From Bacteroidales bacterium (GTDB lineage Bacteria; Bacteroidota; Bacteroidia; Bacteroidales; P3), in the NCBI GenBank assembly GCA_017469625.1, contig JAFUGA010000048.1, positions 1-37,546 on the forward strand: a DNA stretch of 37,546 nucleotides, given 5' to 3'. The position numbers and the translations under genes were made by a program. Below the pieces are notes generated by a model. That model saw only the letters and a list, made by a program, of their open reading frames with translations, made no database searches and was not told the DNA's origin. Numbering within the stretch: position 1 is the stretch's first letter; the number at the start of each line of letters is the position of its first letter. Below, in pieces: positions 14,785 to 37,299 of the stretch.

Positions 14785-14910
14785 AATAACAGAGTAACTT
14801 TACCGTCTTTTGTCTTCAAAAAATACTTTTCTAATAGATAGATTTGCAAAGGAAAATTGAAAAAATCCTTATATTGTTTTTCTTTTCAAATATTTTTTTA
14901 TACCTTTGCA
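14783..14910 (+). repeat. 128-bp inverted repeat, right copy (toxin-antitoxin promoter side)
   Basis: Reverse complement of 12903-13030 with three mismatches and no gaps. It ends inside the promoter of the toxin-antitoxin pair, just after TTTGCA. Beyond that point the sequence stops matching dapD and instead matches the argS leader up to 14927. Confidence 0.93.
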
Positions 14911-14927
14911 CCGAAATAGAGTAAAAA
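14889..14927 (+). repeat. 39-bp direct repeat, copy 1 (upstream of the toxin-antitoxin pair)
   Basis: Identical to 15627-15665 over 39 bases, offset 738. It contains the T-tract, the TATACCTTTG -7 box and the first 17 leader bases (CCGAAATAGAGTAAAAA). The two copies bracket the toxin-antitoxin genes exactly. Confidence 0.95.
14901..14908 (+). promoter_or_regulatory. -7 box of the toxin-antitoxin operon
   Basis: TACCTTTG, 36 bases before the antitoxin ATG. It is a copy of the argS -7 box. Confidence 0.75.
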
Positions 14928-14944
14928 ATATAGAGGACGAAACA

Positions 14945-15214
14945 ATGCAGACTATAAAGATTGCAAATAATTTGTACAATGAGGCTTTGATATACGCCAA
15001 CCAGCACAACAAAACAATATCTGAGTTAGTGGAAGAGTATATCAAAGACCTGCTTTATACAGAGAAAAAACAACCCTATAAGATGAAAACAATAGAAGAA
15101 CTGCCTAAGGAGTTGCAAGAAATTATAGGTGTAGCATATTCTCCCAATGCAGACGAAAACGATTTGAACGGCAGAAAAGAAATAGAAGAATTTTTATTAG
15201 AGAAAAATAAATGA
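14945..15214 (+). CDS. Antitoxin, DUF6364-like ribbon-helix-helix type
   Basis: 89 aa from ATG 14945; an in-frame TTG upstream lies in the promoter. The N-terminus TIKIANNLYNEALIYANQHNKTISELVEEYIKDLL has the strand-helix-helix pattern of small DNA-binding antitoxins of the DUF6364 type. The C-terminal half is acidic and probably folds on the toxin (IEELPKELQEIIGVAYSP, then NDLNGRKEIEEFLLEKNK). Its stop overlaps the toxin start as ATGA, typical of coupled antitoxin-toxin translation. It likely autorepresses the promoter at 14901. The operon lies between 39-bp direct repeats of the argS promoter. The family name is inferred by pattern only. Confidence 0.8.
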   Translation: MQTIKIANNLYNEALIYANQHNKTISELVEEYIKDLLYTEKKQPYKMKTIEELPKELQEIIGVAYSPNADENDLNGRKEIEEFLLEKNK

Positions 15215-15621
15215 AAAAGATATTTTTAGATACTAATATTATTCTTGATATTCTTCAAAGAAGAGGAGTGTTTTTTCTTCCAGCGTCTAATCTGTTCTCT
15301 TTGGGTATGCAAGGAAAGTATATTATGTATATATCCCCACTAACTTTTGTTAATTGTATTTATATACTTAGAAAGTACTGTGGATACGAGCAGGCATTGA
15401 ATTATATGAGAGTCATAAAAAAGTATGTTTTGCTTACAAATATGAGAGAAGAGGAGTTGAATTTGGCAATAGATACTAAAGGTAAGGATATAGAGGATAT
15501 GTTACAATATTATTCAGCAGTTAATGTTGGTTGCGAGGTTGTAGTAACACGTAATAAGAAAGACTTTCCACAATCTGGTATTCCCATTATGACAGCAGAA
15601 GAATTACTAAATAATTATTAA
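15211..15621 (+). CDS. PIN-domain toxin (VapC-like ribonuclease)
   Basis: 136 aa covering one PIN domain. FLDTNIILDILQRRG carries the first metal-binding Asp (D7, with D14). The downstream acidic set is KDIEDMLQYYSA (D92, D95 region) and the TRNKKDF strand (D118 region). The second-strand position where VapC has Glu reads SPLTFVNCIYIL, with Asn, as in the PIN_3-type subfamily of Bacteroidota. Such toxins cut RNA and halt growth until bound by the antitoxin. Its ATG overlaps the antitoxin stop by four bases. The second 39-bp repeat begins six bases after the stop, so the pair is a compact cassette. Confidence 0.88.
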   Translation: MKKIFLDTNIILDILQRRGVFFLPASNLFSLGMQGKYIMYISPLTFVNCIYILRKYCGYEQALNYMRVIKKYVLLTNMREEELNLAIDTKGKDIEDMLQYYSAVNVGCEVVVTRNKKDFPQSGIPIMTAEELLNNY

Positions 15622-15626
15622 GAAAG

Positions 15627-15665
15627 AATATTTTTTTATACCTTTGCACCGAAATAGAGTAAAAA
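15627..15665 (+). repeat. 39-bp direct repeat, copy 2 (argS promoter)
   Basis: Exact copy of 14889-14927; it supplies the argS promoter and the first leader bases. Confidence 0.95.
15639..15646 (+). promoter_or_regulatory. -7 box of argS
   Basis: TACCTTTG within TATACCTTTGCACC; expected start near 15652, leader about 57 bases to ATG 15709. Confidence 0.75.
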
Positions 15666-15708
15666 GGTAGAACAATATATTAGCAGAATAAAAAAATAAA
15701 CTCAAAAG

Positions 15709-17502
15709 ATGATACAGCAAATTTTACAACAATCTATATCAAAAGCACTTAAAGAATTATACAATATAGAAACCGAAGAGAAAAACATCGTTTTGCAACC
15801 TACAAAGAAAGAGTTTGAGGGCGATTATACTCTTGTGGTTTTCCCATACGTGAAGATTGCGAAAAAATCTCCTGAAATGGTGGCAAAGGAGATAGGAGAG
15901 AAAGCAAAGGAACTTTCAGATATTATCACAGGTTTCAATGTTATAAAAGGTTTCCTAAATTTCTCTGTGAATAAATCTTATTGGAATACATTTTTGGACA
16001 AGAACAAATGCAACGAAACCTTTGGTTACGGTGAGAAAAAGAACGATAGCCCTATTGTAATAGAGTATTCTTCGCCTAATACCAATAAACCTCTGCACCT
16101 TGGACATATTCGTAACAACCTTTTGGGCTGGAGTGTTGCCGAGATATTGAAAGCCAACGGTTACACGGTGAAAAAGGTTAATCTTGTAAATGATAGGGGC
16201 GTGCATATCTGCAAAAGTATGGTTGCATGGCTGAGATATTCCAACGGAGAAACACCAGAAACCTGCGGAGAAAAAGGCGACCATTTGGTAGGAAAGTATT
16301 ATGTTGTTTTTGATAAGGAATATAAAAAAGAGATAGCAGAACTTGTAGCCAAAGGTATGACAGAGGAAGAGGCTAAAAAGCAAGCACCTATTATGGTAGA
16401 GGCTCAAAATATGCTTGTAAAGTGGGAGAACAAAGATAGCGAAGTAAGGACTTTGTGGGAGAAGATGAACTCTTGGGTTTATGCAGGTTTTGATGCTACA
16501 TATAAACGTTTAGGAATTGATTTTGACAAGATATATTACGAAAGTAATACATATTTGCTTGGAAAAGAACTTGTACAAGAGGGATTGGAGAAAGGTGTGT
16601 TCTATAAACGTGAAGATGGTTCTGTGTGGATAGACCTTACAGACGAAGGGCTTGATGAGAAACTTTTGTTACGAAAAGACGGTACAAGCGTTTATATGAC
16701 ACAGGATTTAGGAACGGCTTGTTTGCGTCATAATGATTTCTCTTCAGACCGCCTTATTTATGTTGTGGGTAATGAACAAATATATCATTTCCAGGTATTA
16801 AAGAAAGTGATGGAGAGATTGGGCTTTGAATGGGCTAAGGATTTGTACCACCTTTCTTATGGTATGGTAGAACTTCCAAACGGTAAGATGAAATCTCGTG
16901 AGGGTACGGTTGTAGATGCAGACGATTTGATGGAGGCTATGTACAACGAAGCCAAAGAAATCTCTATCAGTCACGGCAAGAATAAAGATTTAGAAGAACA
17001 AGAGGCAGATAAACTTTACAACACATTGGCTTTAGGTGCGTTGAAATATTTTATGTTAAAAGTAGACCCAAGTAAAACCATGCTTTTCAACCCTAAAGAA
17101 AGCATAGATTTCAATGGCAATACAGGTCCATTTATTCAATATACATACGCACGTATCTGTTCTATAATTCGCAAGGCTAAAGAGGAGAAAAACATAGATG
17201 CTGCTTTGTCAAACATTGATATGAACATAGAACTTTCGGACAAGGAAACAGAACTATTAAAGACTATCTCCACATTTCCAAATGTTGTAAAAGAGGCAGG
17301 AAAGAACTATTCACCATCTTTGATAGCAAACTTTGTCTATGCGTTGGCAAAACAGTTTAATGCTTTCTATCAAGACACATCTATATTAAAAGAAGAGAAC
17401 GAAAACATTATGAAAGAAAGAGTGTGTCTTACTTACTTTACAGGCGAGGTTATAAAGAAAGCAATGCACCTTTTGGGTATAGATGTTCCTCAAAGAATGT
17501 AA
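15709..17502 (+). CDS. argS: Arginyl-tRNA synthetase
   Basis: 597 aa, a normal length. The N-terminal Arg_tRNA_synt_N domain (about 1-90) is followed by the class I catalytic domain with its HIGH motif as HLGH (130-133, in PNTNKPLHLGHIRNN) and the KMSKS-like loop KMKSREG (about 398-404). The C-terminal helical anticodon-binding domain starts about 475 (FIQYTYARICSIIRKA) and ends LLGIDVPQRM. It charges tRNA-Arg in the cytoplasm. It heads a run with clpS (19 bases after the argS stop), nfeD and floA. Expression starts from the copy-2 promoter of the 39-bp repeat and might also receive read-through from the toxin-antitoxin operon, as no terminator separates them. Confidence 0.97.
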   Translation: MIQQILQQSISKALKELYNIETEEKNIVLQPTKKEFEGDYTLVVFPYVKIAKKSPEMVAKEIGEKAKELSDIITGFNVIKGFLNFSVNKSYWNTFLDKNKCNETFGYGEKKNDSPIVIEYSSPNTNKPLHLGHIRNNLLGWSVAEILKANGYTVKKVNLVNDRGVHICKSMVAWLRYSNGETPETCGEKGDHLVGKYYVVFDKEYKKEIAELVAKGMTEEEAKKQAPIMVEAQNMLVKWENKDSEVRTLWEKMNSWVYAGFDATYKRLGIDFDKIYYESNTYLLGKELVQEGLEKGVFYKREDGSVWIDLTDEGLDEKLLLRKDGTSVYMTQDLGTACLRHNDFSSDRLIYVVGNEQIYHFQVLKKVMERLGFEWAKDLYHLSYGMVELPNGKMKSREGTVVDADDLMEAMYNEAKEISISHGKNKDLEEQEADKLYNTLALGALKYFMLKVDPSKTMLFNPKESIDFNGNTGPFIQYTYARICSIIRKAKEEKNIDAALSNIDMNIELSDKETELLKTISTFPNVVKEAGKNYSPSLIANFVYALAKQFNAFYQDTSILKEENENIMKERVCLTYFTGEVIKKAMHLLGIDVPQRM

Positions 17503-17521
17503 CAATAAAACATATACGAAT

Positions 17522-17800
17522 ATGAATAATCAGAAAACAGAATCCGAAGGCTTAGGCTGTTGTATGGAAGTGTCAGAAGAGGGCAACGAACTCATAGTAT
17601 ATAATGACGATGTGCACACATTTGATTTTGTTATAGAGTGTCTTGAGACTATCTGTTTCCTATCAAAAGAACAGGCGGTAACATGTACCAATATTATTCA
17701 TTACAAAGGACTCTGCACAGTGAAACACGGTTCATACGATGAATTATTGCCAATGTGTATTGCTTTGGAAAAGAAAGGATTGAATGTAGAATTGAAATAA
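17522..17800 (+). CDS. clpS: ClpS, adaptor of the ClpAP protease
   Basis: 92 aa from ATG 17522; a longer frame overlapping argS is unlikely. The core NDDVHTFDFVIECLETICFLSKEQA...IIHYKGLCTVKHGSYDELLPM matches ClpS: the ND pair and the following helix form the N-degron pocket, and the His/Gly segment follows. ClpS binds N-terminal destabilising residues and hands substrates to ClpA/ClpC. It lies 19 bases after argS and 19 bases before nfeD, so it is probably cotranscribed. Two neighbouring cysteines (GCCMEV) in the flexible N-terminus are unusual but outside the fold. Confidence 0.88.
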   Translation: MNNQKTESEGLGCCMEVSEEGNELIVYNDDVHTFDFVIECLETICFLSKEQAVTCTNIIHYKGLCTVKHGSYDELLPMCIALEKKGLNVELK

Positions 17801-17819
17801 AACAAAAAAATAAAAAATT

Positions 17820-18284
17820 ATGGAACTATTGTATATAATTATTTTATTAGTCTTTGGTATGGCTCTTATAATACTTGAACTTGTGGCTATACCAGGAACA
17901 ACCATTGCAGGTTTGGGAGGTTTGGCTCTCTCTATATGGGGCATAGTGAAAATATTTGCAGAATATGGCTCTTCGTGGGGCTTTGGTATTCTGTTGTTAG
18001 AAGTAGTCTTTTGCGTAGTTCTTCTTGTCTATTCTTTGAGGACAAAAACTTGGAAACGCTTTGCACTTAAGGAAGAAATATCTTCAAAAGTCAATGAGAT
18101 AAAGACAAACATACAAGTAGGGGATAAAGGCAAAACCATTACACGTTTGGCTCCTACAGGCACGGCTCTTATAAACGGAGAAAGGGTAGAAGTATTTACA
18201 TCAACATCTTTTTTAGACCCAAATACAGAGATAGAAGTAGAGGGAATGGAAGGAAATAGAATAAGAGTTAAACCTTTGAAATAA
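17820..18284 (+). CDS. NfeD-family membrane protein
   Basis: 154 aa. Two or three transmembrane helices (about 3-22, 25-47 with IPGTTIAGLGGLALSIWGIV, 53-75) are followed by a soluble OB-fold domain (about 95-150; VGDKGKTITRLAPTGTALINGERVEVF and NTEIEVEGMEGNRIRVKPL), the NfeD signature. NfeD proteins are paired with flotillin/stomatin-like proteins and are thought to organise membrane microdomains. The floA gene begins 54 bases downstream, which supports the assignment. This is the short NfeD form without the serine-protease ClpP-like domain. Confidence 0.9.
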   Translation: MELLYIIILLVFGMALIILELVAIPGTTIAGLGGLALSIWGIVKIFAEYGSSWGFGILLLEVVFCVVLLVYSLRTKTWKRFALKEEISSKVNEIKTNIQVGDKGKTITRLAPTGTALINGERVEVFTSTSFLDPNTEIEVEGMEGNRIRVKPLK

Positions 18285-18338
18285 AACTTTTTAGATAAAG
18301 AAATAAATTATAGTTATAAACCAAAAAAAGAAAGAATT

Positions 18339-19319
18339 ATGTTATTACAATCATTAGCCTTTGCACTTACACCAGCAGTCTGGATTATAGTAGTACTTGC
18401 TGTTGTTTTACTATTGGTATTTTTCTATTTAATACCTGTCAATCTATGGTTTCAATGTGTGTTGAACGGAGTAAGAATCTCACTTTTGCAACTTATGTTT
18501 ATGCGTTGGCGTAAAGTACCACCAGCACTTATTGTCAATGCTATGATAAACAGCAAGAAAGCAGGATTGGACTTAAGTAGCGATTTACTTGAAGCACACT
18601 ATTTGGCAGGAGGACATGTTCAAAGAGTGGTAAATGCTTTGATTTCTGCCGATAAAGCAAACATTGCATTGGATTTCAAAGCCGCTACAGCAATAGATTT
18701 GGCTGGTAGAGATGTATTTGAGGCCGTTCAGATGAGTGTAAATCCTAAGGTTATAGATACTCCTTCTGTAGCAGCCGTTGCAAGAAATGGTATTCAACTT
18801 ATAGTAAAAGCCAGAGTTACAGTTAGAGCAAACATCAACCAATTAGTAGGTGGTGCTGGTGAAGAAACCATTTTGGCACGTGTAGGCGAAGGTATAGTTA
18901 CCTCTATAGGTAGTGCAGAATCTCATGCCTTTGTTTTGGAAAACCCAGACAGTATTTCAAAAGTCGTTCTTGCAAAAGGACTTGACACAGGTACTGCTTT
19001 TGAAATCCTTTCCATAGATATAGCCGATATAGATGTAGGAAAGAACATAGGAGCAGAACTTCAGATGGACCAAGCCAATGCAGACAAAAACATAGCACAA
19101 GCAAAGGCAGAGGAAAGAAGAAGTATGGCTATAGCAACAGAACAAGAGATGAAAGCCAAAGCACAAGAAATGCGTGCTAAGGTTATAGAAGCAGAAGCAG
19201 AAGTGCCACTTGCTATGGCAGAAGCCTTCAGAAACGGTAATCTTGGTATAATGGATTATTACAAAATGAAAAACATTCAAGCCGATACCGATATGCGTGA
19301 ATCCATCAGCAAACAATAA
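18339..19319 (+). CDS. floA: Flotillin-like protein FloA
   Basis: 326 aa. One N-terminal membrane anchor (about 12-33, [19 protein letters not shown]) is followed by the SPFH-like core (about 60-240; [63 protein letters not shown]) and a Glu/Ala-rich coiled coil (about 240-300; [22 protein letters not shown]). It matches bacterial FloA (formerly YqfA), a scaffold of functional membrane microdomains. It follows nfeD, the usual partner. It ends before the terminator at 19374-19407. Confidence 0.95.
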
Positions 19320-19373
19320 TTTCTTAAAGAAATGAACACAGAAATTTAGACAAAATTTAGTTTTCATAAAAAC

Positions 19374-19407
19374 AAATCCTGCGAATACATAATTTTGCAG
19401 GATTTTT
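19374..19407 (+). terminator. Terminator of the argS-clpS-nfeD-floA run
   Basis: Stem AAATCCTGC (19374-19382) with GCAGGATTT (19397-19405), then T's. The T-tract runs directly into the uvrA -7 box. Confidence 0.82.
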
Positions 19408-19411
19408 TTAG

Positions 19412-19419
19412 TACTTTTG
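19412..19419 (+). promoter_or_regulatory. -7 box of uvrA (likely leaderless)
   Basis: TACTTTTG followed by CAGA and then ATG at 19424. The predicted start site falls at or next to the initiation codon. Confidence 0.6.
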
Positions 19420-19423
19420 CAGA

Positions 19424-22234
19424 ATGAATTCAAACGAGATAAACATAATAGCAAAAGGAATACGTGTAAATAATCTTAAAAACATAGATATACAGATTCC
19501 TCAAAACTCATTTACAGTCATTACAGGCGTTAGTGGAAGTGGTAAATCTTCTTTGGCTTTTGATACTTTATTTGCTGAGGGTCAAAGACGTTACATAGAA
19601 AGTCTTTCATCTTATGCACGACAGTTTATAGGTAGAATGCCAAAACCAGAAGTAGATAAGATAGAAAACATACCTCCAGCCATAGCAGTACATCAAAGGA
19701 CTATCAACCGCAATCCTCGTTCTACCGTTGGTACTATGACAGAAATATATGAATATCTTAAACTTCTTTACACCAAGATTGGCAAGACTTATTCGCCTAT
19801 CTCTGGTAGGGAAGTGAAAAGAGATTCTGTTACTAATGTAGTAGATTATATCTTAGATAATTATAAAGAAAAACGTATCTATATTCTGTGTCCTATACGT
19901 GTAGAAAAAGAAGATAAATTTGAACAAAGGCTGAACATACTCTTGCAGATAGGTTATACTCGTTTGTTTTCAGATGGAGAAATTCAGAAAATAGAAGAAG
20001 TTTTGCAGGATAAAAAACTTTTGAAACAGTGCAAGGATTCTTTCCTACTTATAGACCGTTTGGCAATAAAAGGAGATAGAGAACCACTGCAACTTCGTCT
20101 ATCTGAGAGTGTTCATACTGCTTTCAATGAATCAAATGGCGACTGTACCGTATGGTCAGACGGAGAAACAATGCAGTTTTCCAATCGCTTTGAAGCAGAT
20201 GGTATGGACTTTGTAAAACCTTCTGAGAATTTCTTTTCTTTCAATAATAAATACGGTGCTTGTCCTACTTGTCAGGGACTTGGTATGGTGGAGGGAATAA
20301 GTGAAGACCTTGTCATAACAAAGCCTTATCTTTCGGTGTATGAAGATGTTGTCAATTGTTGGAAAGGTGTTGTGATGTCGCATTTTAAAAACGATTTCAT
20401 AAATAAAGCATATAAAAAATTCCCTATTCACAAACCTTACAACGAACTTTCACAAGAACAAAAAGATTTCCTATGGAATGGAGATAAGAACGTAATAGGT
20501 ATAAACAAGTTCTTTGAATTAGTAAAGAAAGAGAGTTACAAGATACAGTACCGTGTGCTTTTGGCAAGATATAGAGGCAGAACGCTTTGTCCAGATTGCA
20601 AAGGAACACGTCTTAGAAAAGATGTAGATTACGTAAAGATTAACGGTAAGTCCTTGATAGATATATTAGTAACTCCGATAGATGAGTTGGTAGATTTCTT
20701 CAAAAACTTACAACTGAACGAGTATGAACAAAAAGCCTCCGATAGAATACTGAAAGAAATAAACAGCCGTTTGCAATACCTTATGCAAGTGGGACTTGGT
20801 TATCTTACACTCAACCGTCAGGCTTCCACTCTTTCGGGTGGCGAGGCTCAAAGAATAGTCTTATCAACCAATATAGGCAGCCCACTTGTTGGCAGTATGT
20901 ACATTTTGGACGAGCCTACAATAGGTTTGCACACCATAGACACAAACAATCTTATTAAGGTGCTGAAAGATTTGCGTGATGAGGGAAACACTGTTATAGT
21001 TGTGGAACACGATGAAGACGTTATACGCAACGCCGACTATATAATAGATATAGGACCTTTGGCAGGAAAGAATGGAGGTGAAGTTGTCTTTGCAGGAAAA
21101 GCCAAAGAACTTATGAAGAACACCAAATCGTTTACAGCACAGTATCTAAGGAAAGAAAAAGGTATTCCTGTGCCAACTCTTCACCACAAAAGCAAAGAGT
21201 ATTTGGAGATAAAAAATATTTTTGCCAACAATTTGAATAATGTTACTCTACACATGCCATTGAAACAAAAAGTAGTGGTATGTGGTGTTTCTGGTAGTGG
21301 AAAGAGTACTCTTATAAACAAAGTGTTTGTCAATGCTTTACGTATGAAATTGGATATAGCCATAGACTATGCTCCTAAATGCTCCGAAGTAGAGGGTTCT
21401 TTGTCGCTTGTGAAAGATATTCAAGTAATAGACCAAAATGCTATATCTCGTTCTTCTCGCAGTAATCCAGCACTTTACACAGGAATATTTGACGATATTC
21501 GCAACCTATACTCCTCACAGCCTTTAGCAAAGACAAGGGGCTTGAAACCAGGCTATTTCTCCTTTAATGTGGAGGGCGGACGTTGTGAAACTTGCAAAGG
21601 GGACGGCGTAATAGATATACCTATGCAATTTATGGCGGACGTTACTTTAGAATGCGATGAGTGTCATGGCAAACGCTACAAAGAAGAAGCCTTAGAAATA
21701 AAGTATAAAGAAAAGAGTATCAGCGATGTACTAAATATGACCATAGACGAAGCCTATGAATTTTTCTCAGATGTGCAAGATACGACCGTAAGAAAAATAA
21801 ACAACGGGTTAAGTATTCTAAAGCAGGTAGGTTTGGGTTATTTGCAGTTGGGACAATCTCTTTCCACTGTTTCGGGTGGTGAAGCCCAGAGGATAAAACT
21901 TGCAGTCTTCCTTTCCAAAGGAACGAATATGCAACATACTCTCTTTGTCTTTGACGAGCCAACAACAGGACTGCATTTTGATGATATACACAAACTTAAC
22001 GAATGTTTTGATGCACTTATTCAAAACGGACATTCTGTGGTTATAATAGAGCATCACTTGGATATAATAAAGACTGCCGATTGGATTATAGAACTTGGAC
22101 CGAAAGGAGGTAAGAATGGTGGAAAGATTATCTTTGAAGGTACTTTGGAAGATATGATTGCCAATGCAGACACTCCGACTTCTAAGTTTCTGAAACAAAA
22201 AGTAATGGAAGATTCTAAAATAACAAAAAAATAA
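19424..22234 (+). CDS. uvrA: Excinuclease ABC subunit A
   Basis: 936 aa, a normal length. Two ABC ATPase halves are visible: Walker A TGVSGSGKSSLAF (about 34-46) and GVSGSGKSTLI (about 623-633), with ABC signatures LSGGEAQRI (about 467) and VSGGEAQRI (about 821). Zinc modules include CPTCQGLG/CPDCKGTR and CETCKGDG/CDECHGKRY. UvrA dimers find helix-distorting lesions and load UvrB in nucleotide excision repair. It is alone behind its own promoter, between the floA terminator and array 4. The start is fixed by the family N-terminus (GIRVNNLKNIDIQIPQNSF). Confidence 0.97.
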   Translation: MNSNEINIIAKGIRVNNLKNIDIQIPQNSFTVITGVSGSGKSSLAFDTLFAEGQRRYIESLSSYARQFIGRMPKPEVDKIENIPPAIAVHQRTINRNPRSTVGTMTEIYEYLKLLYTKIGKTYSPISGREVKRDSVTNVVDYILDNYKEKRIYILCPIRVEKEDKFEQRLNILLQIGYTRLFSDGEIQKIEEVLQDKKLLKQCKDSFLLIDRLAIKGDREPLQLRLSESVHTAFNESNGDCTVWSDGETMQFSNRFEADGMDFVKPSENFFSFNNKYGACPTCQGLGMVEGISEDLVITKPYLSVYEDVVNCWKGVVMSHFKNDFINKAYKKFPIHKPYNELSQEQKDFLWNGDKNVIGINKFFELVKKESYKIQYRVLLARYRGRTLCPDCKGTRLRKDVDYVKINGKSLIDILVTPIDELVDFFKNLQLNEYEQKASDRILKEINSRLQYLMQVGLGYLTLNRQASTLSGGEAQRIVLSTNIGSPLVGSMYILDEPTIGLHTIDTNNLIKVLKDLRDEGNTVIVVEHDEDVIRNADYIIDIGPLAGKNGGEVVFAGKAKELMKNTKSFTAQYLRKEKGIPVPTLHHKSKEYLEIKNIFANNLNNVTLHMPLKQKVVVCGVSGSGKSTLINKVFVNALRMKLDIAIDYAPKCSEVEGSLSLVKDIQVIDQNAISRSSRSNPALYTGIFDDIRNLYSSQPLAKTRGLKPGYFSFNVEGGRCETCKGDGVIDIPMQFMADVTLECDECHGKRYKEEALEIKYKEKSISDVLNMTIDEAYEFFSDVQDTTVRKINNGLSILKQVGLGYLQLGQSLSTVSGGEAQRIKLAVFLSKGTNMQHTLFVFDEPTTGLHFDDIHKLNECFDALIQNGHSVVIIEHHLDIIKTADWIIELGPKGGKNGGKIIFEGTLEDMIANADTPTSKFLKQKVMEDSKITKK

Positions 22235-22269
22235 AATTTTATTATGATTTTTTGATGACAAAAAGACAC

Positions 22270-22353
22270 TCTGACGAAACTTTGTTTTAATTTTCTAAAA
22301 CAAAGAAATAGAATTCTAAAACAAAGTTCTACGAAAATAAAACAAAGAGATAG
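22270..22353. repeat. 21-bp repeat array 4 (4 units)
   Basis: Units at 22270 (inverted), 22291, 22312 and 22333; a fifth, poorly matching stretch follows at 22354-22374. Two adjacent units (22291-22332) are nearly identical to 14680-14721 of array 3, so blocks of units, not only single units, are shared between arrays. It lies between uvrA and hydE. Confidence 0.88.
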
Positions 22354-22442
22354 AAAAGAGAAGTAAAAACTCAAATAAAATAAACCGTAAATAATTATAA
22401 TACAACGAAAAAAGGGTAGGAGTAAAAACAAGAAAGAAGATT

Positions 22443-28837: not shown

Positions 28838-29389
28838 ATGTGTAAAGAATTCAAATACTTGTTCTTAGATAGGGACGGAGTTATAAACGTAAGGAAGATG
28901 GGGGGCTATATTACCTTTTATTCTGAGTTTAGGTTTATGGACGGAGTTTTAGAGGCTCTAAGTATTTGTAACACATTGTTTGACAGGATATTTATTGTAA
29001 CAAATCAACAGGGTATAGGAAAAGGTTTATTTACAGAAAAAGGTTTTGAAGAACTTAATTCTCAGATGTTGAGAGAAATAACCGCCAACCAAGGTCGAAT
29101 AGACCGTGTGTATATGTGTCCAGCACTGAAAGAGGAAAATTCTCCTAATAGGAAGCCTCGCACAGGTATGGGTTTGCAAGCACAAAAGGACTATCCAGAG
29201 GTAGATTTTTCCAAAAGTATTATGGTGGGAGATTCTAATTCGGATATGCTTTTTGGTAAGGCTTTGGGAATGTATAACATCTTCATTGACAATCAAACAG
29301 GTGAATTTTACGATAAAGAAATTATTAACGAAAAATACGATAGTTTAATATCTTTTGCTAAAAAATATGAAGAGATTTTGATAAAATAG
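28838..29389 (+). CDS. HAD phosphatase, D-glycero-D-manno-heptose-1,7-bisphosphate 7-phosphatase-like
   Basis: 183 aa. HAD motif I is FLDRDGVIN (nucleophile D11, acid D13), motif II is IVTNQQGIGKG, motif III lies in RKPRTGM and motif IV is VGDSNSDM; this is the HAD-IIIA layout of GmhB and histidinol-phosphatase. GmhB usually carries a zinc site of Cys/His around CPHHP...CxCRKP; here only the first Cys is kept (MCPALKEENSPNRKP), so the zinc loop appears lost. The position 31 bases after gmhA supports the heptose pathway. Confidence in the exact substrate is moderate. Confidence 0.75.
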   Translation: MCKEFKYLFLDRDGVINVRKMGGYITFYSEFRFMDGVLEALSICNTLFDRIFIVTNQQGIGKGLFTEKGFEELNSQMLREITANQGRIDRVYMCPALKEENSPNRKPRTGMGLQAQKDYPEVDFSKSIMVGDSNSDMLFGKALGMYNIFIDNQTGEFYDKEIINEKYDSLISFAKKYEEILIK

Positions 29390-29403
29390 ATTGATTTTTT
29401 TTA

Positions 29404-29529
29404 AGAAATAAAACGAAGTTTTAATTCAGCGAAACGAAGAAATAATTTTCTAAAACGAAGAGATAGAAAATTAGAATCAAGTTTTAGAAAATTAAAACAA
29501 AGTTTCGAGAGAATGAAGTACGATTGTAG
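29404..29529. repeat. 21-bp repeat array 5 (6 units)
   Basis: Units at 29404, 29425, 29446, 29467, 29488 and 29509 (last one degenerate), all 21 bp. The core is more often AAACGAAG here than AAACAAAG. It lies between the gmhB-like gene and the MORN-type gene. Confidence 0.88.
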
Positions 29530-29617: not shown

Positions 29618-30628
29618 ATGAAACTTAAGAGTTTAACAATTATTTCGGCAACTTTATTGATTGCATTTTCATATTCTGCTCAAGCACAAAACAAAAAGGA
29701 CGACAAGAGCAGAAAACAAGGTCATTGGGTGAAGACTTCACAGGCTGGCAAGAAGGTTTATGAAGGAAATTTTGTAGATGATTACCCTGTGGATACGTTC
29801 TATTATTACGATAAAAAGGGTAGGGTGAGTCTGAAAAATATTTTCACCAACGAGGGCAAGGACAACTATTCCATTCTCTACCATTCCAATGGCAAAATGA
29901 AGGCAGAGGGTAATTATATTGACAAGAAAAAAGAGGGTAAGTGGTTGTATTATAACGAGAAAGGTAAAAGAATAACTGAACTTTTTTATAAACAAAACTT
30001 AAAAGACGGACAGGAAAAAGTTTGGGACGATGACGGCAAAGAGGTCATAGAGATAACGACTTATAGGCAAGGCAAAAAAGAGGGAGAATTCTTTAAAAGT
30101 CTTTATTCCTCAGGCTATTACACCTGTACTTATAAGAACGACAAACTTAACGGCACATATAAGGAACATTTCCCAGACAAGAAAATTAGGGTTCAAGGAG
30201 AATATGTTGATGATAACAAGCAGGGTGAGTGGCTTGTATATACATCGTATAGTCAAGTGGTTCAGAAACTTACGTATAAAGATAACGTACTTGTGAAAGA
30301 TATACTTGTGTTGCACACCGACAAAGGCGACATAGAGATTTCGCAAGACGAGATAGCACTTCTAAGGTCTACAGGCAAGCAAACTCAAGTAATAAAAAAG
30401 AACTCTGAAAAGATGGCTTGCATACAGGATTTTGAGACATTGTTAAACTATGTTAATGCAGAGAAATTCTACCTTATGGACGCAAAATCAAAGATTTACG
30501 TTAATATATCTACTATCAAAGGTATAAATCAAGACGGTAGCCTAAGAACAAGTGTAGATTTTGGTTTCAAAATCATACCAGACAAAGACGGTTTGCAAAT
30601 GGTAAATACCTTAATTAGAAAAGATTAA
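29618..30628 (+). CDS. Exported MORN-variant repeat protein
   Basis: 336 aa. A signal peptide (about 1-23, ending SAQAQ) is followed by six to seven repeats of about 23 residues with the pattern GxW..Y...G....E..Y..(N/K)(L/K).G (for example GHWVKTSQAGKKVYEGNFVD, GKWLYYNEKGKRITELFY, GEWLVYTSYSQVVQKLTY) over about 30-220: the MORN_2 / YwqK-type repeat. The C-terminal 100 residues lack repeats and look alpha/beta. MORN-type proteins bind membranes or proteins; the exact role here is unknown. It is monocistronic and ends at the terminator 30773-30810. Confidence 0.75.
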   Translation: MKLKSLTIISATLLIAFSYSAQAQNKKDDKSRKQGHWVKTSQAGKKVYEGNFVDDYPVDTFYYYDKKGRVSLKNIFTNEGKDNYSILYHSNGKMKAEGNYIDKKKEGKWLYYNEKGKRITELFYKQNLKDGQEKVWDDDGKEVIEITTYRQGKKEGEFFKSLYSSGYYTCTYKNDKLNGTYKEHFPDKKIRVQGEYVDDNKQGEWLVYTSYSQVVQKLTYKDNVLVKDILVLHTDKGDIEISQDEIALLRSTGKQTQVIKKNSEKMACIQDFETLLNYVNAEKFYLMDAKSKIYVNISTIKGINQDGSLRTSVDFGFKIIPDKDGLQMVNTLIRKD

Positions 30629-30772
30629 CCTAAAAAAGTTACTCTGTCAATATTGTTTCTCTGTGTAGTCAAATTTTTTCTAAGTACTTAGGTTTGGATA
30701 TGCAATAGAAAGAAAATATTACGCAAAACACTGAGAGCGTTTTACAGAAAGCCTACAGTATTTCAATAGGAT

Positions 30773-30810
30773 AGGGAAGTTTATTAGGAAAAACTTCCCT
30801 TTTTGTTTTT
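30773..30810 (+). terminator. Terminator of the MORN-type gene
   Basis: A perfect 10-bp stem (30773-30782 AGGGAAGTTT, 30791-30800 AAACTTCCCT) is followed by TTTTGTTTTT. Bases 30629-30772 upstream contain no other feature I can name. Confidence 0.82.
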
Positions 30811-30879
30811 CTATGGTTTATTATGGTAAAGTTTCTGTGCTAATACTATGTTAAAAAAGTGCTATTTGATAAAGACATT

Positions 30880-32118
30880 TTATTCGTAAATAATGGTGGA
30901 AAGGTTTGATATACAAAATATTTCACCTGCTACAGTGAGTATATCTTTTGGTGTAATGCTATCTATCTCGTTAAAGGTTTCTTGCAGAGTTTCTACCTTA
31001 CCATAATTCAACAGGGACTTGCCTATGGAAAGCATTTCCTCCTTGTTGTAATCGTATTGAATGGCAAGTTGTCCTTTCAACTGCTCTTTGGCACGAAATA
31101 TTTGATTTTGAGTTAATCTTTTCTCTGCAAAACGTTCTAATGTTTTGTGAATGAGAGATATAATCTTGTCTATATTCTTTGCTTCAGTACCTGCATATAT
31201 CTGAAAAATACCGTTATCGCTATAAGGCACAAAAGAGGATTCTATGGTATAAACCAAACCGTGCTTTTCTCTTATGTACATATTCAGTGCCGAATTCATA
31301 GCAGGCGAACCCAAGATATTGTTTAACAACGTGAAAGCTACACGTTTATTATTCCTGTAGTCGTATGCTTGATTGCCGATAATTATATGCGTTTGAAATG
31401 TATCCCTGTTCTGTCTTATGAATTGAGGTTTATAATTGTATTTCTTATGCTTTCTAACGGTGGTTTGTTTGTTTGGAAACGGCGAAAAAAACTTCTCGCA
31501 CATTCTTGCCCAGCGGTCAAACTCTATATTACCAACGGTGGAGATAACTATATTTTTTGCAGACCAAGAGTTTGATATAAAGTCTTTTACATCGTTGGAA
31601 GAAAACCTCATAACGTTCTCTGGTGTTCCCAAAATCATACGACCTAACCCTGTATCACCAAATACTAATCTCTCAAACTCATCGTAAATCAAATCGGCGG
31701 GGGAGTCCTCGTAAGAGTTTATCTCCTCTATTATTACTGTCTTTTCCTTTTCCAACTCCTTGTCGGGAAAGGTTGAATTTAGGATAATATCCGATAAAAG
31801 TTTTATGGCTCTTTGATAGTAATTATTTAAAAATGTGGCATATACGACCGTTTCTTCCTTAGTAGTGTATGCGTTGAGTTCTCCTCCTACACCGTCTATC
31901 CTTGACAAAATCCTATTGGAAGAAAGTTTCTCCGTCCCCTTGAAAATACAGTGTTCTATAAAGTGTGCCATACCGTTCTCACTCTTTTTTTCATCTCTAC
32001 TGCCAACATCTATAAATACACCAAGATGAGCCACTTGCGATGGAGTGTAACGATGTACCAACCTTATACCATTGCTCAAAGTATGATAGTTATAAGGGTA
32101 TTGTGCAAGATTTATCAT
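30880..32118 (-). CDS. M16-family zinc metallopeptidase (active type)
   Basis: 412 aa. The inverted zinc motif is HFIEH (H52, E55, H56), with the third ligand about E132 in VIIEEINSYEDSP. The C-terminal half has the R/Y signature MYIREKHGLVYTIESSF. No signal peptide is seen, so it is probably cytoplasmic, like the pitrilysin/processing-peptidase-like M16B members that degrade peptides. It is the last gene of the leftward operon dNK-kdsB-HU/SPOR-M16, 51 bases after the previous stop. The catalytically dead M16 at 4330-5601 is a candidate partner 25 kb away. Confidence 0.92.
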   Translation of the reverse strand: MINLAQYPYNYHTLSNGIRLVHRYTPSQVAHLGVFIDVGSRDEKKSENGMAHFIEHCIFKGTEKLSSNRILSRIDGVGGELNAYTTKEETVVYATFLNNYYQRAIKLLSDIILNSTFPDKELEKEKTVIIEEINSYEDSPADLIYDEFERLVFGDTGLGRMILGTPENVMRFSSNDVKDFISNSWSAKNIVISTVGNIEFDRWARMCEKFFSPFPNKQTTVRKHKKYNYKPQFIRQNRDTFQTHIIIGNQAYDYRNNKRVAFTLLNNILGSPAMNSALNMYIREKHGLVYTIESSFVPYSDNGIFQIYAGTEAKNIDKIISLIHKTLERFAEKRLTQNQIFRAKEQLKGQLAIQYDYNKEEMLSIGKSLLNYGKVETLQETFNEIDSITPKDILTVAGEIFCISNLSTIIYE

Positions 32119-32169
32119 TATAATTTCGCAATGCTTGTCTAAACCAACAAAATTTTGTGGCTACATTAC

Positions 32170-33783
32170 CTACCTTGAGATAACGTAATAATTGCCACCC
32201 ATTTTTGTTTTCATGCTCTGCATTAGGTCGTTAGCCTCTGTAAGAGTACGGCGAGAACCATAACTTACGTAATAGATAGGTTGTCCGCTTTTTATCTTTG
32301 AAAGCACGTAACTATCATAACCTAAAGACTTTGCTTTCTTTGCTTGCTGTTCTGCACGTTTTTTATCTGAATAAGTACCATCTACAACATCAAAACCAAG
32401 TTTAGAATAGTTTTGTGTCAATACAGGCGTATTATCTTCAACCAAAGTTACAGGTTTAGACTCCTGTTTTGGAGTTGTTTCTTTCTGTGTTTTGTTATTG
32501 GTTTTGTTGGTCTTAGGCTTGTTTGTATTCTGTTTTGCAGTAGCGTTTTGAGTGTTGTCCCCATAATTATAAACAGGGTCCGGAGCGTTGTAAGGTATCT
32601 CTGGTGCAGACTCTTCCGTTGCAGATACTTCCTGCACGTTTATCTCTGGTTCATCAGATACCGTTTCCTCTTTTTTAACCTCTGCTTCCACAGTCTTTTT
32701 CGCCTTATCTGTTCTTGCAGGTATGTAATACTCAAGCCTTTGCGTAATAGGTTTCAAAGCCTTTATATCTTTCAACCAACCCATATAATGAGCCCCAACA
32801 AAACAAAGACACAAGAACAAAAGTATAAGAACTATCCAGCAAAGCACCTTCCAAAACTTCTTTCTTGCATTCTTTTTGCGTTTGTTTTTCTTCTTCTGTT
32901 TTTCTTCTTTCTCGCTGAATTTGTTGATAATATCTTTTGCTTCTTGCTTCAAATCATCATCATCTTTTTCCTCAACAGCGACCTGTTTTTCTTTCATCAA
33001 ATCCTCTTTTTCTACTGGTTTAATATCCTCTACTACAACATCTTCCTTGAATTCTTCAGCCCTATCTATAGTCTGCTGAGTCTTATCCTCTGTAGGTGTA
33101 GCATCTACAGAAAGTCTCTCTGTTATCTCACTTTCTGATACAGGCTTTTCTACATCTGTATCAATCACTGCTTCAGAATGTTGAATGATACGAGTAGTTG
33201 TCTGTTCTTGCGTTTCGTTTATCTTATTTTCCTCTTTCAGTTGTTTAGTTTCCTCTATCTTCTTTTCTATCTCTTTCTTTTTCTCCAAAGCCTCTGTGTA
33301 AAGTGTTTCTTGTTCCACTTTCTCAGGTTCTGTCTTGGTACGAATAGGGGACAAAGTATCTGAATGTGAGTATGTTTTAACGTTTTTCAATTCTCCTAAA
33401 GCAAAACTATCACCCATAAGGTTCAAGCCCTGTGCTGGTGTGAAACTGTACTCACCTATAATCCCTTTTGACAAAGTTCCCAACTTATCCACATTCACCG
33501 TTTCGCCTTTGTCCAACTTATCTTTCACAAAATCAGCATACTGTTTTATCCAAGTGTTCGCCGTTTCTTCTGAAATAAACTCCTTTTGTGCCATATAAGA
33601 AACAAAGGATTTGTCTGAAGAACAGTTAGTTGTAAAACTTACCTTACGAGAAGGAGGGAGTATGTTTCCCAAAGAAAAGTTGATTTCGGCTGAATGCTCT
33701 TTTACCGTAAATGTACCCAAACCAGGTATTTCCGCCAAATTATTATGTTTTAAATAATCGTATAAATTTTCTGCAACGTTCAT
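32170..33783 (-). CDS. HU-CCDC81-like and SPOR domain membrane protein
   Basis: 537 aa. Two HU/IHF-like modules of the bacterial CCDC81 type (about 1-55, IPGLGTFTVKEHSAEINF; about 58-130, VDKLGTLSKGIIGEYSFTPA) are followed by a long Glu/Lys-rich linker with coiled-coil tendency (about 150-300). A single transmembrane helix follows (about 311-333, WKVLCWIVLILLFLCLCFVGAHY), then a Pro/Thr/Asn-rich linker and a SPOR domain (about 455-537, GTYSDKKRAEQQAKKAKSLGY). SPOR binds denuded glycan at division septa, so the protein probably joins a cytoplasmic HU-like domain to periplasmic peptidoglycan. It lies 11 bases after kdsB. Its role in division or envelope organisation is inferred. Confidence 0.88.
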   Translation of the reverse strand: MNVAENLYDYLKHNNLAEIPGLGTFTVKEHSAEINFSLGNILPPSRKVSFTTNCSSDKSFVSYMAQKEFISEETANTWIKQYADFVKDKLDKGETVNVDKLGTLSKGIIGEYSFTPAQGLNLMGDSFALGELKNVKTYSHSDTLSPIRTKTEPEKVEQETLYTEALEKKKEIEKKIEETKQLKEENKINETQEQTTTRIIQHSEAVIDTDVEKPVSESEITERLSVDATPTEDKTQQTIDRAEEFKEDVVVEDIKPVEKEDLMKEKQVAVEEKDDDDLKQEAKDIINKFSEKEEKQKKKNKRKKNARKKFWKVLCWIVLILLFLCLCFVGAHYMGWLKDIKALKPITQRLEYYIPARTDKAKKTVEAEVKKEETVSDEPEINVQEVSATEESAPEIPYNAPDPVYNYGDNTQNATAKQNTNKPKTNKTNNKTQKETTPKQESKPVTLVEDNTPVLTQNYSKLGFDVVDGTYSDKKRAEQQAKKAKSLGYDSYVLSKIKSGQPIYYVSYGSRRTLTEANDLMQSMKTKMGGNYYVISR

Positions 33784-33794
33784 AATATATCTTG

Positions 33795-34541
33795 TTAATT
33801 GATTATCTGTTTAATGTGTTCTAAATCTTGTGGAGTATCAACCCCTATGGAATCAAACTCAGACTCCATTACATTTATATGGTATCCGTTTTCCAACCAA
33901 CGCAACTGCTCCAAACTCTCCGTTTGTTCCAAAGTGCTTTTTTCTAACAAAGTTATCTCGTGTAAAACCTTAGGTAGATATGCGTAAATGCCTATGTGTT
34001 TGAAATATACACCTTTTTTTACCAAAGATTTTAAATCTTCGTCCCTATTAAACGGCACTATGCTACGTGAAAAATAAAGAGCCTTATTTTGTGCTTTTAC
34101 TACCTTTACCACATTCACATCTTTCACATGTTCAATATCTTCTATCTTCTTTGCAAGTGTAACTATTTCAGCGTCTTTGTCCTCAAAACCCTCCAATACT
34201 TTTGCCATCTGCTGAGTTTTTATCAAAGGTTCATCGCCCTGAATATTCACAACAACATCGTACTTTTCACCTCTTTGTTCTAAAATCGTCAAAGCCTGTT
34301 CGCACCTCTGAGTACCGCAAGAGAGTTCTTTTGAAGTCATAATGTACTTTGCCTCATACTGTTGCAAAACTTTTTCTATCCTTTCATCGTCCGTTGCAAC
34401 ACAGACTTCGGAGAACAAACCCGAATTTTTTACAGCGTCATAAACCCACATAACTATAGGCTTGCCTTTTATCTCTGCCAAAGGTTTGCCACAAAATCTT
34501 TTGCTTTCGTATCTTGAAGGTATAAGTGCTAATGCTTTCAT
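33795..34541 (-). CDS. kdsB: 3-deoxy-manno-octulosonate cytidylyltransferase
   Basis: 248 aa. The N-terminus ALIPSRYESKRFCGKPLAEIKGKPIVMWVY is the KdsB nucleotide-binding signature, followed by VCVATDDERI, VVNIQGDEPLI (metal/CTP site) and the C-terminal GVDTPQDLEHI. It activates KDO as CMP-KDO for the LPS inner core. It lies two bases after the kinase gene and 11 bases before the HU/SPOR gene in one leftward operon. Confidence 0.95.
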   Translation of the reverse strand: MKALALIPSRYESKRFCGKPLAEIKGKPIVMWVYDAVKNSGLFSEVCVATDDERIEKVLQQYEAKYIMTSKELSCGTQRCEQALTILEQRGEKYDVVVNIQGDEPLIKTQQMAKVLEGFEDKDAEIVTLAKKIEDIEHVKDVNVVKVVKAQNKALYFSRSIVPFNRDEDLKSLVKKGVYFKHIGIYAYLPKVLHEITLLEKSTLEQTESLEQLRWLENGYHINVMESEFDSIGVDTPQDLEHIKQIIN

Positions 34542-34543
34542 TT

Positions 34544-35155
34544 TTAAAACAATCCGTTAATTTCTGCATTTATCATTTCCACCACCTTTCCAAAATCCTC
34601 TGGTGAGTCTATAATGTTAAGATTATCAACATCTACCATAATTTTCCTACCCTCAAAACCATCTATCCATTCATCGTAACGCTTGTTCAAAGAAGTTATG
34701 TAATCCAAACGAATAGACGACTCATAATTTCTGCCTCTTTTGGTTATAAGGTTGATAAGTGTAGGCACCGATGCTTTCAAATATAAAAGCAAATCTGGTT
34801 TCGGTGTAAGAGATATAAGTAAATCAAACAGAGAACGATAGGTTTCATAATCCCTTGATGACAACAAACCCATAGCGTGCAAAGTAGGTGCAAAAATATA
34901 TGCATCTTCGTAAAGTGTACGGTCTTGTACTATGTTCTTATGTTCTTTGCATGAGGCAATTACGTGTGCAAACCTTCTGTGAAGAAAATACACCTGAAGA
35001 TTGAAAGCCCATCTTCGCATATCCTCGTAAAAGTCTGATATATAAGGATTATTGTCTATATGTTCATATACAGGCACCCAACCAAAATGTTCTGCTAACA
35101 TATTGGTCATAGTCGTTTTTCCACTACCTATATTCCCCGCTATTGCTACATACAT
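34544..35155 (-). CDS. Deoxynucleoside kinase (dNK/dGK-dCK type)
   Basis: 203 aa. P-loop GNIGSGKTT (about 7-15), the EHIDNNPYISDFYEDMRRWAFNLQVYFLHRRF substrate region, the DRT motif (QDRTLYEDAYIF; family DRS), and a lid-like segment LITKRGRNYESSIRLDYI. It phosphorylates deoxynucleosides in salvage. It is first in the operon with kdsB, HU/SPOR and M16, from the TAACTTTG box at 35203-35210. That promoter is one copy of the 34-bp repeat flanking the restriction-modification genes. Confidence 0.92.
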   Translation of the reverse strand: MYVAIAGNIGSGKTTMTNMLAEHFGWVPVYEHIDNNPYISDFYEDMRRWAFNLQVYFLHRRFAHVIASCKEHKNIVQDRTLYEDAYIFAPTLHAMGLLSSRDYETYRSLFDLLISLTPKPDLLLYLKASVPTLINLITKRGRNYESSIRLDYITSLNKRYDEWIDGFEGRKIMVDVDNLNIIDSPEDFGKVVEMINAEINGLF

Positions 35156-35200
35156 ATTACTTATAATTACTTAACTCTTTTTGTCTTTAAAAAATTACCG

Positions 35201-35234
35201 TGCAAAGTTACAAAAACTTATGTAAATAAAGAAA
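35201..35234 (-). repeat. 34-bp direct repeat, copy 1 (deoxynucleoside kinase promoter)
   Basis: Identical to 37266-37299 over 34 bases, offset 2065; flanking bases differ on both sides. It contains TAACTTTG and the sequence upstream of it (minus strand), that is, the promoter of the kinase operon. The two copies bracket the restriction and methylase genes. Confidence 0.95.
35203..35210 (-). promoter_or_regulatory. -7 box of the deoxynucleoside kinase operon
   Basis: Minus-strand TAACTTTG followed by CA, 47 bases before the ATG at 35155. Confidence 0.7.
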
Positions 35235-35248
35235 AATTTACACCACTT

Positions 35249-35935
35249 TTAAATATTCCTCAATCGTTGTATTTCCTTTTCTATCTCTTCTATTACACCC
35301 TTATTTGCTATTTCTCCGTCTAAACTATAGAGTATAAACACTTTGCCACCAAATTCATTTTTAAAGTTTTGAAAACTCATTTGCATTCTTTCGCTTATAG
35401 GAGTGCTACCAAAATTGGCTTGAGCAGTTATGGGTTTTATCTGAAAACCTATTTGATATTTTCCTATTTTTGCAACGTAATCTATATCTCCAGCGTGGTC
35501 TAATTCTGGATTACTTTCCTCAAAAACAATATTTGGAAAAATATTAGAAAGTTCATCATTTATTACAGATTTTTCTCTCAAATAGCCATCGTAGGTTCTG
35601 TTAATAGTAAGGTTGTAAATATATTCAATACAGTCTTTTTCAGTTAGTTCTCTAAATGCTTGTTCCCATTCTGGTATAACTATTTGAGTTATTTTGCTAT
35701 ACAATCTTTCTCCAATTTCTTTTAGACTATCTTGTGTTATTTTTACTGAATTTTTTCCTGTAGTTATAGTATTCTCAAAATACCATTTTTCCCATTCTTT
35801 GAAAGACGAAGGCTGACACTCCCTAATCAAAGCCATAACTGCTCCTACTTTGTTTGGACGAGATAATTGATAGGTTTGGCAAGCGTAATTCAAAACACGT
35901 TCTTTTTTACCAAAATCCAATGAATATCTTTTCAT
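35249..35935 (-). CDS. Type II restriction endonuclease, MjaI-like
   Basis: 228 aa. The catalytic block is PELDHAGDIDYVAKIGKYQIGFQIKP: D150 or D152, then Q165-x-K167, a PD-(D/E)xK nuclease core with Gln in the middle position. The N-terminal SRPNKVGAVMALIRECQPSSFKEWEKWYFE and the IYNLTINRTYDGYLREKSVI middle match my memory of the MjaI family, whose type member cuts CTAG; the specificity here is inferred. It begins five bases after the methyltransferase stop, so the methylase is made first. It ends 14 bases before the kinase promoter repeat, with no terminator between. Confidence 0.78.
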   Translation of the reverse strand: MKRYSLDFGKKERVLNYACQTYQLSRPNKVGAVMALIRECQPSSFKEWEKWYFENTITTGKNSVKITQDSLKEIGERLYSKITQIVIPEWEQAFRELTEKDCIEYIYNLTINRTYDGYLREKSVINDELSNIFPNIVFEESNPELDHAGDIDYVAKIGKYQIGFQIKPITAQANFGSTPISERMQMSFQNFKNEFGGKVFILYSLDGEIANKGVIEEIEKEIQRLRNI

Positions 35936-35940
35936 ATTTC

Positions 35941-37206
35941 TCAGTAGTTTATGAATTTGTTTTTGTATTTATAATCTATGCTTGTGTCTGGCAAAACAAG
36001 TTTTTCTTTCAAAAGATGAGCGTTTATAAACATTTTGTTTTCCAAATAAAGATAGCACAACAAGTTGTTTTTGTCATCGTGTTTTATATCGTCAAACCTC
36101 ATATAAACCCTATGACCTTTAGTTTTTTCTTTAATGAAAATATTTGCTTTCTCAACCATTGAAGGTATAGGTTCTATACCTAAAAGTTTTATAACCAAAT
36201 CATTATTAAGTTTCAAAAGATTAGGAGCCAACACATCTTTTACGGAATAATAATCCTCTCGTTGTGAAGAATTTTTATCTATCTTAGAACCAAATTGCAT
36301 AGTTTTAGGGTCTATTTTCTTTTCCATTTTCACATTATCTTTGAAAAGATAGGGTAGGGATTGTATATTCTTTTGATAATCAAATGATAGAGTATCTTGC
36401 AGAAAATCATAAGTAGAGTATTCAAAGATACCATCTGAACATACTTTTTGTTTATAATAGTCTTTGAATGAGTCGTTTATTTCGTACCCTACAGAGTTTC
36501 TTTGTAGATTTTTTGCTGCTAAGGCAGTTGTTCCGCTACCCATAAAGGGGTCAAATACTGTTTCTCCCACGAATGAAAACATTTTTATCAACCTATGAGG
36601 TAATTCTTCAGGGAAAACGGCAATATGCCCATCTTGTTTTGCTCCTACAAAATTCCAATGCGAAGAGAAATAATTATTCCATTCTTGTTTGTCTATGGCG
36701 GATAGTTCTTTCTGTTGTTTGGTAGGTTGAGGGGCTTTGCCTTGCTTTTTGAATATCAAAATAAATTCATAATCTATCTTTACAATACCATTTCTTGGGT
36801 AAGGATAACTACCCATTACCACAGCACCGCCTGTTGTGTGCATAGAAGTTTGTTTCTGCCATATTATAGCCCCCATATAATCCAAACCTATTGACTCACA
36901 AAACCTTATTATCTCTGTTCTAATAGGAATAACTTTGTAACGTCCATAATAAACGCTACGAGCAAATTGGTCGCCTATGTTTATACACAATCTGCAACCA
37001 TCGTGCAGTATGCGATTACATTCAGACCAAACCATATTTAGATTGTTTATATAATCCTCATAACTATCATTGAAACCTATCTGCTGTTGAGTGTCATAAT
37101 CCTTTAATTGCCAATATGGAGGAGATGTAATAATCAAATGAACCGATGAATCTTTCATCAAGGTCATATTTCTACTATCACCATTTATCAAAATATGTTT
37201 TCCCAT
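35941..37206 (-). CDS. DNA methyltransferase (probably N4-cytosine, beta class) with C-terminal SNase-like domain
   Basis: 421 aa. Motif IV TSPPYW (27-32) precedes motif I DPFMGSGTT (219-227), the beta-class order; SPPY favours N4-cytosine methylation. A target-recognition region lies about 85-200 (WQKQTSMHTTGG...SSHWNF). The last 85 residues (about 337-421) are foreign to ordinary methylases and read like a staphylococcal-nuclease/OB fold: VIKLLGIEPIP, GHRVYMRFDD, LLCYLYLENKMFINAHLL, YKYKNKF. The SNase catalytic arginines appear replaced (K at the first, N at the second), so the domain is probably not a nuclease. It is cotranscribed with the MjaI-like endonuclease, protecting host DNA. Confidence 0.88.
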   Translation of the reverse strand: MGKHILINGDSRNMTLMKDSSVHLIITSPPYWQLKDYDTQQQIGFNDSYEDYINNLNMVWSECNRILHDGCRLCINIGDQFARSVYYGRYKVIPIRTEIIRFCESIGLDYMGAIIWQKQTSMHTTGGAVVMGSYPYPRNGIVKIDYEFILIFKKQGKAPQPTKQQKELSAIDKQEWNNYFSSHWNFVGAKQDGHIAVFPEELPHRLIKMFSFVGETVFDPFMGSGTTALAAKNLQRNSVGYEINDSFKDYYKQKVCSDGIFEYSTYDFLQDTLSFDYQKNIQSLPYLFKDNVKMEKKIDPKTMQFGSKIDKNSSQREDYYSVKDVLAPNLLKLNNDLVIKLLGIEPIPSMVEKANIFIKEKTKGHRVYMRFDDIKHDDKNNLLCYLYLENKMFINAHLLKEKLVLPDTSIDYKYKNKFINY

Positions 37207-37265
37207 ATAAACTACTATATTTTCTTATAGTTATGCTTTTAAAACAATTCTTTTTTTTTCTTCGT

Positions 37266-37299
37266 TGCAAAGTTACAAAAACTTATGTAAATAAAGAAA
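37266..37299 (-). repeat. 34-bp direct repeat, copy 2 (methyltransferase promoter)
   Basis: Exact copy of 35201-35234, here driving the restriction-modification pair. Confidence 0.95.
37268..37275 (-). promoter_or_regulatory. -7 box of the restriction-modification operon
   Basis: Minus-strand TAACTTTG followed by CA, about 61 bases before the ATG at 37206. Confidence 0.7.

Follow-up and report, generated by a model that had tools for sequence, protein, structure and literature searches.

Toxin-antitoxin and restriction-modification gene pairs that probably entered a Bacteroidales genome by long target duplication at host promoters

We identified two unrelated gene cassettes, a predicted toxin-antitoxin (TA) pair and a predicted restriction-modification (RM) pair, which share one insertion architecture in a Bacteroidales bacterium (GenBank assembly GCA_017469625.1, contig JAFUGA010000048.1). 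The 37,546 nucleotides analyzed, hereafter called the window, make up one contig (C3) in full, from an assembly of 2.37 Mb. We consider it likely, at a probability of about 0.72, that both pairs entered by long target duplication, the upstream copy of the duplicated sequence driving the cassette and the downstream copy keeping the promoter of the neighboring gene. Insertion would have duplicated host sequence, here a promoter region, on both sides of the cassette. The duplication may have formed during repair, either by template switching back to an upstream point or by fill-in of a staggered break, two routes which the data do not separate. The downstream copy would leave the host gene, argS or a deoxynucleoside kinase gene, with its own promoter, and selection would afterwards have allowed only those insertions to survive that left the neighbor intact.

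The TA cassette lies on the plus strand upstream of the host gene argS (15709..17502; TIGR00456), which encodes arginine--tRNA ligase. According to domain scans it consists of an antitoxin gene of the DUF6364 family (PF19891; 14945..15214 from its ATG start, within a longer frame of 14906-15214) and a VapC-like toxin gene with a PIN_3 domain (PF13470; 15211..15621). Like type II TA systems of the VapBC type, the pair shows two overlapping genes in one predicted operon, a small antitoxin followed by a PIN toxin; it differs in that the antitoxin is a DUF6364 protein, and its TA role is predicted from these domains. Two identical 39-bp repeat copies (39/39) enclose the pair, forming a repeat unit of 738 bp. 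The upstream copy (14889..14927, plus strand), the putative promoter of the TA pair, carries the -7 motif TACCTTTG at 14901-14908. The downstream copy (15627..15665, plus strand), which on comparison with relatives may represent the promoter and leader of argS, follows the toxin stop codon after 5 bases. The motif TAnnTTTG begins at base 13 of 39 on the cassette strand, so that the repeat continues into the argS leader.

The RM cassette is encoded on the minus strand upstream of a deoxynucleoside kinase gene of the dNK family (PF01712; 34544..35155), which is followed by kdsB (33795-34541), both on the minus strand and assigned by domain scan. A DNA methyltransferase gene (N6_N4_Mtase, PF01555, 3.1e-45; 35941..37206) precedes a restriction endonuclease gene of the RE_MjaI family (PF09568, 1.1e-27; 35249..35935). 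This order, an RE_MjaI endonuclease adjoining and following an N6/N4 methyltransferase, is that of MjaI-type RM systems, to which the window pair is assigned from its genes. The flanking repeat is perfect over 34 bp (34/34), or extends to 39 bp with 2 mismatches, in a unit of 2065 bp. The upstream copy (37266..37299, minus strand) is the putative promoter of the RM pair and contains the -7 motif TAACTTTG at 37275-37268; the downstream copy (35201..35234, minus strand) is separated by 14 bases from the endonuclease stop codon and, judged by orthologous promoters, would be the native promoter of the kinase gene. Here TAnnTTTG begins at base 25 of 34 on the cassette strand, and the repeat therefore stops 2 bases past the motif. 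A phage or plasmid carrier for the RM pair was rejected, as neither database comparison indicates one: among 50,697 phage records 397 matched the methyltransferase, none of them across more than 80% of its length, and among 72,556 plasmid records 3 matched the endonuclease, at about 25% identity. Two more matches to the MjaI endonuclease family are present in the same genome (L063 and L019; G000:C38, 54964-56242), each with a stop codon within it. Upstream of the RM cassette, near 37402-37425, 24 bases of the window are identical to L121:19833-19856; both places are near contig ends, and the match may mark where a repeated element ends.

The two-gene, same-strand organization, the perfect repeats and their short distances to the last stop codon had been described in a sequence-only reading of the window, and all were confirmed. 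That reading had also claimed that no recombinase is carried, and indeed none of the four enclosed genes matched one in Pfam and NCBIfam scans. Its view that two unrelated modules share a common insertion architecture is supported, as is its identification of the repeats with promoters of host genes read in the same direction: both repeats contain TAnnTTTG, and relatives support the kinase promoter and, more weakly, that of argS. The 39 and 34 bp of perfect host direct repeat are longer than the direct repeats of a transposon. Terminal inverted repeats in five cassettes scored 6-7, whereas shuffled sequences reached 8-11, and a transposon or miniature inverted-repeat transposable element (MITE) was rejected on this ground. 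The first ATG of the two window cassettes stands 17-59 bases after the upstream repeat copy. Because this gap contains no second TAnnTTTG in either cassette, the upstream copy probably serves as the cassette promoter.

The RM repeat was scored against the upstream regions of 1490 genes in the genus (99th percentile 36, maximum 40), and the orthologous kinase upstreams were compared for nine of the 11 other loci, G010 and G002 being left out. Five of these nine relatives scored above the 99th percentile (50, 44, 42, 40, and 37), three of them higher than any other upstream, which strongly suggests that the RM repeat is the kinase gene's own promoter region. The corresponding argS comparison covered 1474 upstreams and 12 relatives, with G004 compared apart; the TA repeat placed the argS upstream of G008 in the top 0.1% and that of G009 at 1.1%, pointing less firmly to the argS promoter region. 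Genus relatives without the modules appear to hold one homologous promoter, clearly so for the kinase (5/9) and weakly for argS (2/12 near or above the 99th percentile). Also in favor of duplication, the RM homologues in G010 and G012, both near contig ends, match the window cassette in their genes and not in their borders.

These comparisons bear on the best surviving alternative, namely that the cassettes own their promoter and entered by recombination with a similar host promoter, the repeat being a tract of homology instead of a duplication. Promoters of this genome can share 22 bp (the 14890 region and 12903-12924), and similarity is also seen between the TA promoters of G007 and G006. 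The identities of 39/39 and 34/34 exceed such sharing, however, and the RM repeat follows the orthologous kinase promoter also in the bases between the -33 and -7 regions. Duplications of coding ends, found in more distant loci as described below, cannot be promoter homology at all. We therefore regard entry through a homology tract as unlikely.

Beyond the window, long target duplication at promoters is suggested by a scan for tight repeats in 100 stretches of the genus plus the window (1.885 Mb). Tight repeats carrying TAnnTTTG were the two of the window, two in L113, and one each in L115 and L120; a 46-bp promoter-bearing repeat in L128 escaped the tight filter owing to an overlapping open reading frame. 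All five repeats beyond the window enclose TA pairs: a DUF4160/DUF2442 pair in both L113 and L120, a PIN_3 gene accompanied in L113 by a small gene and another frame of 232 amino acids, a YoeB/ParE-like pair in L115, and a PIN pair in L128. The four stretches involved also contain a PIN match, and in four of the five cases the enclosed pair differs from that match. With the 12 stretches with or near PIN matches removed, the same filter found no tight promoter-bearing repeat in the 88 others. Among 53 small, close, co-directional gene pairs in the 100 stretches, three were bracketed by repeats of at least 20 bp, all of them TA pairs, the TA share of the other 50 not having been counted. TAnnTTTG occurred in 6-16% of random upstream windows of equal lengths; a product calculated by hand over the five outside repeats is about 8e-6, in which the two repeats of L113 share one promoter and are not independent. 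Repeats of at least 18 bp bracketed 35 of 498 genes in the genus, so that short repeats mean little there. An 80-bp perfect repeat in L131 (8376-10293) surrounds a pair of larger genes, of which one has a GNAT/FemAB-like match; long duplications are therefore not confined to TA and RM pairs. The same set of repeats with an identical spacing of 5063 bp was seen on two contigs of G007 (L104 on C4 and L107 on C7), a duplication or an assembly effect.

In all, 25 events were available after extension, with repeats of about 20-150 bp (22-147 bp) whose sequence differs at each locus. The L324 repeat is of low complexity, repeated arrays may include L168 and L182, and the L336 and L352 events are based on 18-22 bp. 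Where the repeat carries TAnnTTTG, a further motif before the first gene was found in none of 9 events, compared to 9 of the 16 other events (p = 0.008), L182, which has both motifs, being counted among the 16. The downstream copy lies at most 100 bases from a gene start in 6 of the 9 motif-bearing events. For the other three (L115, L120, and L128), 308-325 bases separate the downstream copy from the start of the next called gene, and a spared neighbor is therefore not evident. Outside the genus the repeat is a promoter in 2 of 18 events without doubt, or 3 of 18 if L182 is counted. Other duplications affect coding ends: in L205 an IMPDH gene is duplicated at its 3' end, stop codon included, and gene starts are duplicated in L304 (PurF-like), L346 (transketolase), and L284 (5-formyltetrahydrofolate (5-FTHF) cyclo-ligase, together with its promoter).

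A site-specific recombinase acting in trans, which would recognize Bacteroidota promoters, insert cassettes and leave att-like repeats, is one form of the enzyme acting in trans that the sequence-only reading had offered as a general route. It would explain the lack of a recombinase in the window cassettes and the presence of TAnnTTTG in all 7 genus repeats around TA or RM pairs. On the other side, the motif begins anywhere from base 5 to base 25 of the perfect repeats, whose lengths also vary, no common core exists beyond the generic -7 motif, and similar modules outside the genus duplicate gene ends. We judge this explanation improbable, slightly more so than the homology tract. The difference in phase between the two window repeats is the very sign that the earlier reading had named as counting against its proposal, and promoters as a general target did not hold outside the genus, where most repeats are not promoters. 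As to the enrichment that it had suggested looking for, the tight promoter-bearing repeats of the genus all enclose TA or RM pairs; enrichment at RM loci is real but modest, and most loci lack a repeat. Specifically, repeats of at least 25 bp within 4 kb bracketed 7 of 105 usable RM loci. In the two controls they bracketed 1 of 94 further genes from those loci (one-sided p = 0.046) and 9 of 574 genus genes (one-sided p = 0.006). Two further cut-offs gave 7/105 versus 1/94 and 11/574, and 5/105 versus 0/94 and 6/574, and an earlier, looser count gave 8 of 80 (58 with enough flank) versus 1 of 41. Many of the genus control matches resemble dispersed intergenic repeats. Dispersed intergenic arrays of families D1 and D2, with a period of 21 bases, are also present in the window at 351-524, 7613-7828, 14624-14797, 22235-22408, and 29369-29521.

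Integron-like or other repeat-bordered arrays with a dedicated site would find support in L113, where three consecutive TA pairs each stand behind a copy of one promoter, a fourth, diverged copy follows the last pair, and the borders of the older unit share at least 89 bp (83 identical); L168 and L182, moreover, sit among longer repeated flanks. The window repeats are dissimilar and each is unique to its host gene, and the cassettes have no terminal inverted repeats, which makes such arrays very improbable here, no search aimed at attC sites having been made. Behind the L113 chain (11300-15200) lies a frame that contains a run of G and could be phase-variable, and in L120, near 1900-1967 on the minus strand, a short frame with a long G run likewise comes right after the promoter copy that follows the DUF4160/DUF2442 pair. 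Chance or convergence of AT-rich promoters with a shared consensus is ruled out by repeat length, since the best ungapped match between the TA flanks is 39 while 60 shuffles reached at most 12, and when 21 bases of the TA repeat were compared with other promoters of the genus, the best match still had 3 mismatches.

A number of observations weigh against entry by long target duplication. Four of the nine kinase upstreams fall below the 99th percentile, and the argS case is the weaker of the two because 9 of its 12 relatives do not stand out from other upstreams (11% or worse), with G001 at 5.6%. One genome per species was compared, and a same-species genome free of the insertions was not among them. 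In G007 the RM homologue (L018) directly adjoins the genes on either side, with no flanking repeat that reaches 14 bp, and in G004 a different PIN TA stands directly before argS with no duplication. Around nine PIN places of the genus, imperfect repeats were present at three and absent at six. Most homologous modules stand without a repeat: a perfect bracketing repeat of at least 18 bp was found at 4 of 40 RM loci (drawn, mostly as the best-scoring, from 68 matches), leaving 36 without, and in a second RM set, whose genomes may overlap with the first, 8 of 80 were bracketed and 72 were not. At a laxer limit of at least 16 bp and with no matched control, 6 of 30 DUF6364 loci were bracketed (24 not), as was 1 of 30 DUF4160 loci (29 not). 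To these is added the modest size of the RM enrichment, which at one of the four cut-offs is not significant within the same loci (5/105 versus 1/94, p = 0.13; 3/574 in the genus). Modules without repeats would be expected if repeats decay or if other routes of entry exist. The TA pair of G004 (L026, the 700 bases upstream of argS), whose stop codon stands some 18 bases before the ATG of argS, is a second argS-adjoining TA in the genus.

A passage of PMC3874152 (citing Nobusato 2000 and Furuta 2010) states that some RM systems, on insertion, duplicate a long target of varying length, on the scale of 100 bp, and passages of PMC1643837 and PMC3031569 state the same mode. As described in these passages, RM genes without a transposase lie between long, variable host direct repeats, as in the window; the Helicobacter insertions involve about 100 bp, whereas the window repeats measure 34-39 bp, are located at promoters, and also surround TA modules. 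Transposons and composite insertion sequences, in the account given in a part of PMC3031569, likewise have direct repeats flanking inserted genes, but the window cassettes have no transposase or terminal inverted repeats and their duplication is much longer. The mobility of RM systems is compared with that of TA systems in a section of PMC2654758. DUF4160/DUF2442 has been demonstrated as a TA system in Dickeya (dhiTA), according to the relevant portion of PMC8198452; the same domain pair, absent from the window, forms the L113 and L120 cassettes between promoter repeats. In excerpts of the literature joining target duplication with toxin-antitoxin systems, no TA or promoter case of long target duplication was found described. 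The insertion route has been known for RM systems since 2000, and its extension to TA pairs and the promoter-capturing form are possibly the new part.

The movement of RM and TA modules in the absence of a transposase has long called for an explanation, and one route may serve both. Duplicated host DNA would keep neighboring genes whole and allow promoterless cassettes to capture a promoter, and since the repeat marks the exact borders of insertion, the route is directly testable. Tentatively, addiction cassettes that lack a promoter of their own (PIN, YoeB/ParE-like, DUF4160/DUF2442, and MjaI-type RM) may form a class in the genus, sustained by duplication of a host promoter as they enter, one copy driving the cassette and the other sparing the neighbor, with newcomers inserting at the promoter of an older cassette and building chains like that of L113. 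If this is true, promoter-bracketed gene pairs would be a usable signature in the search for unknown addiction or defense modules.

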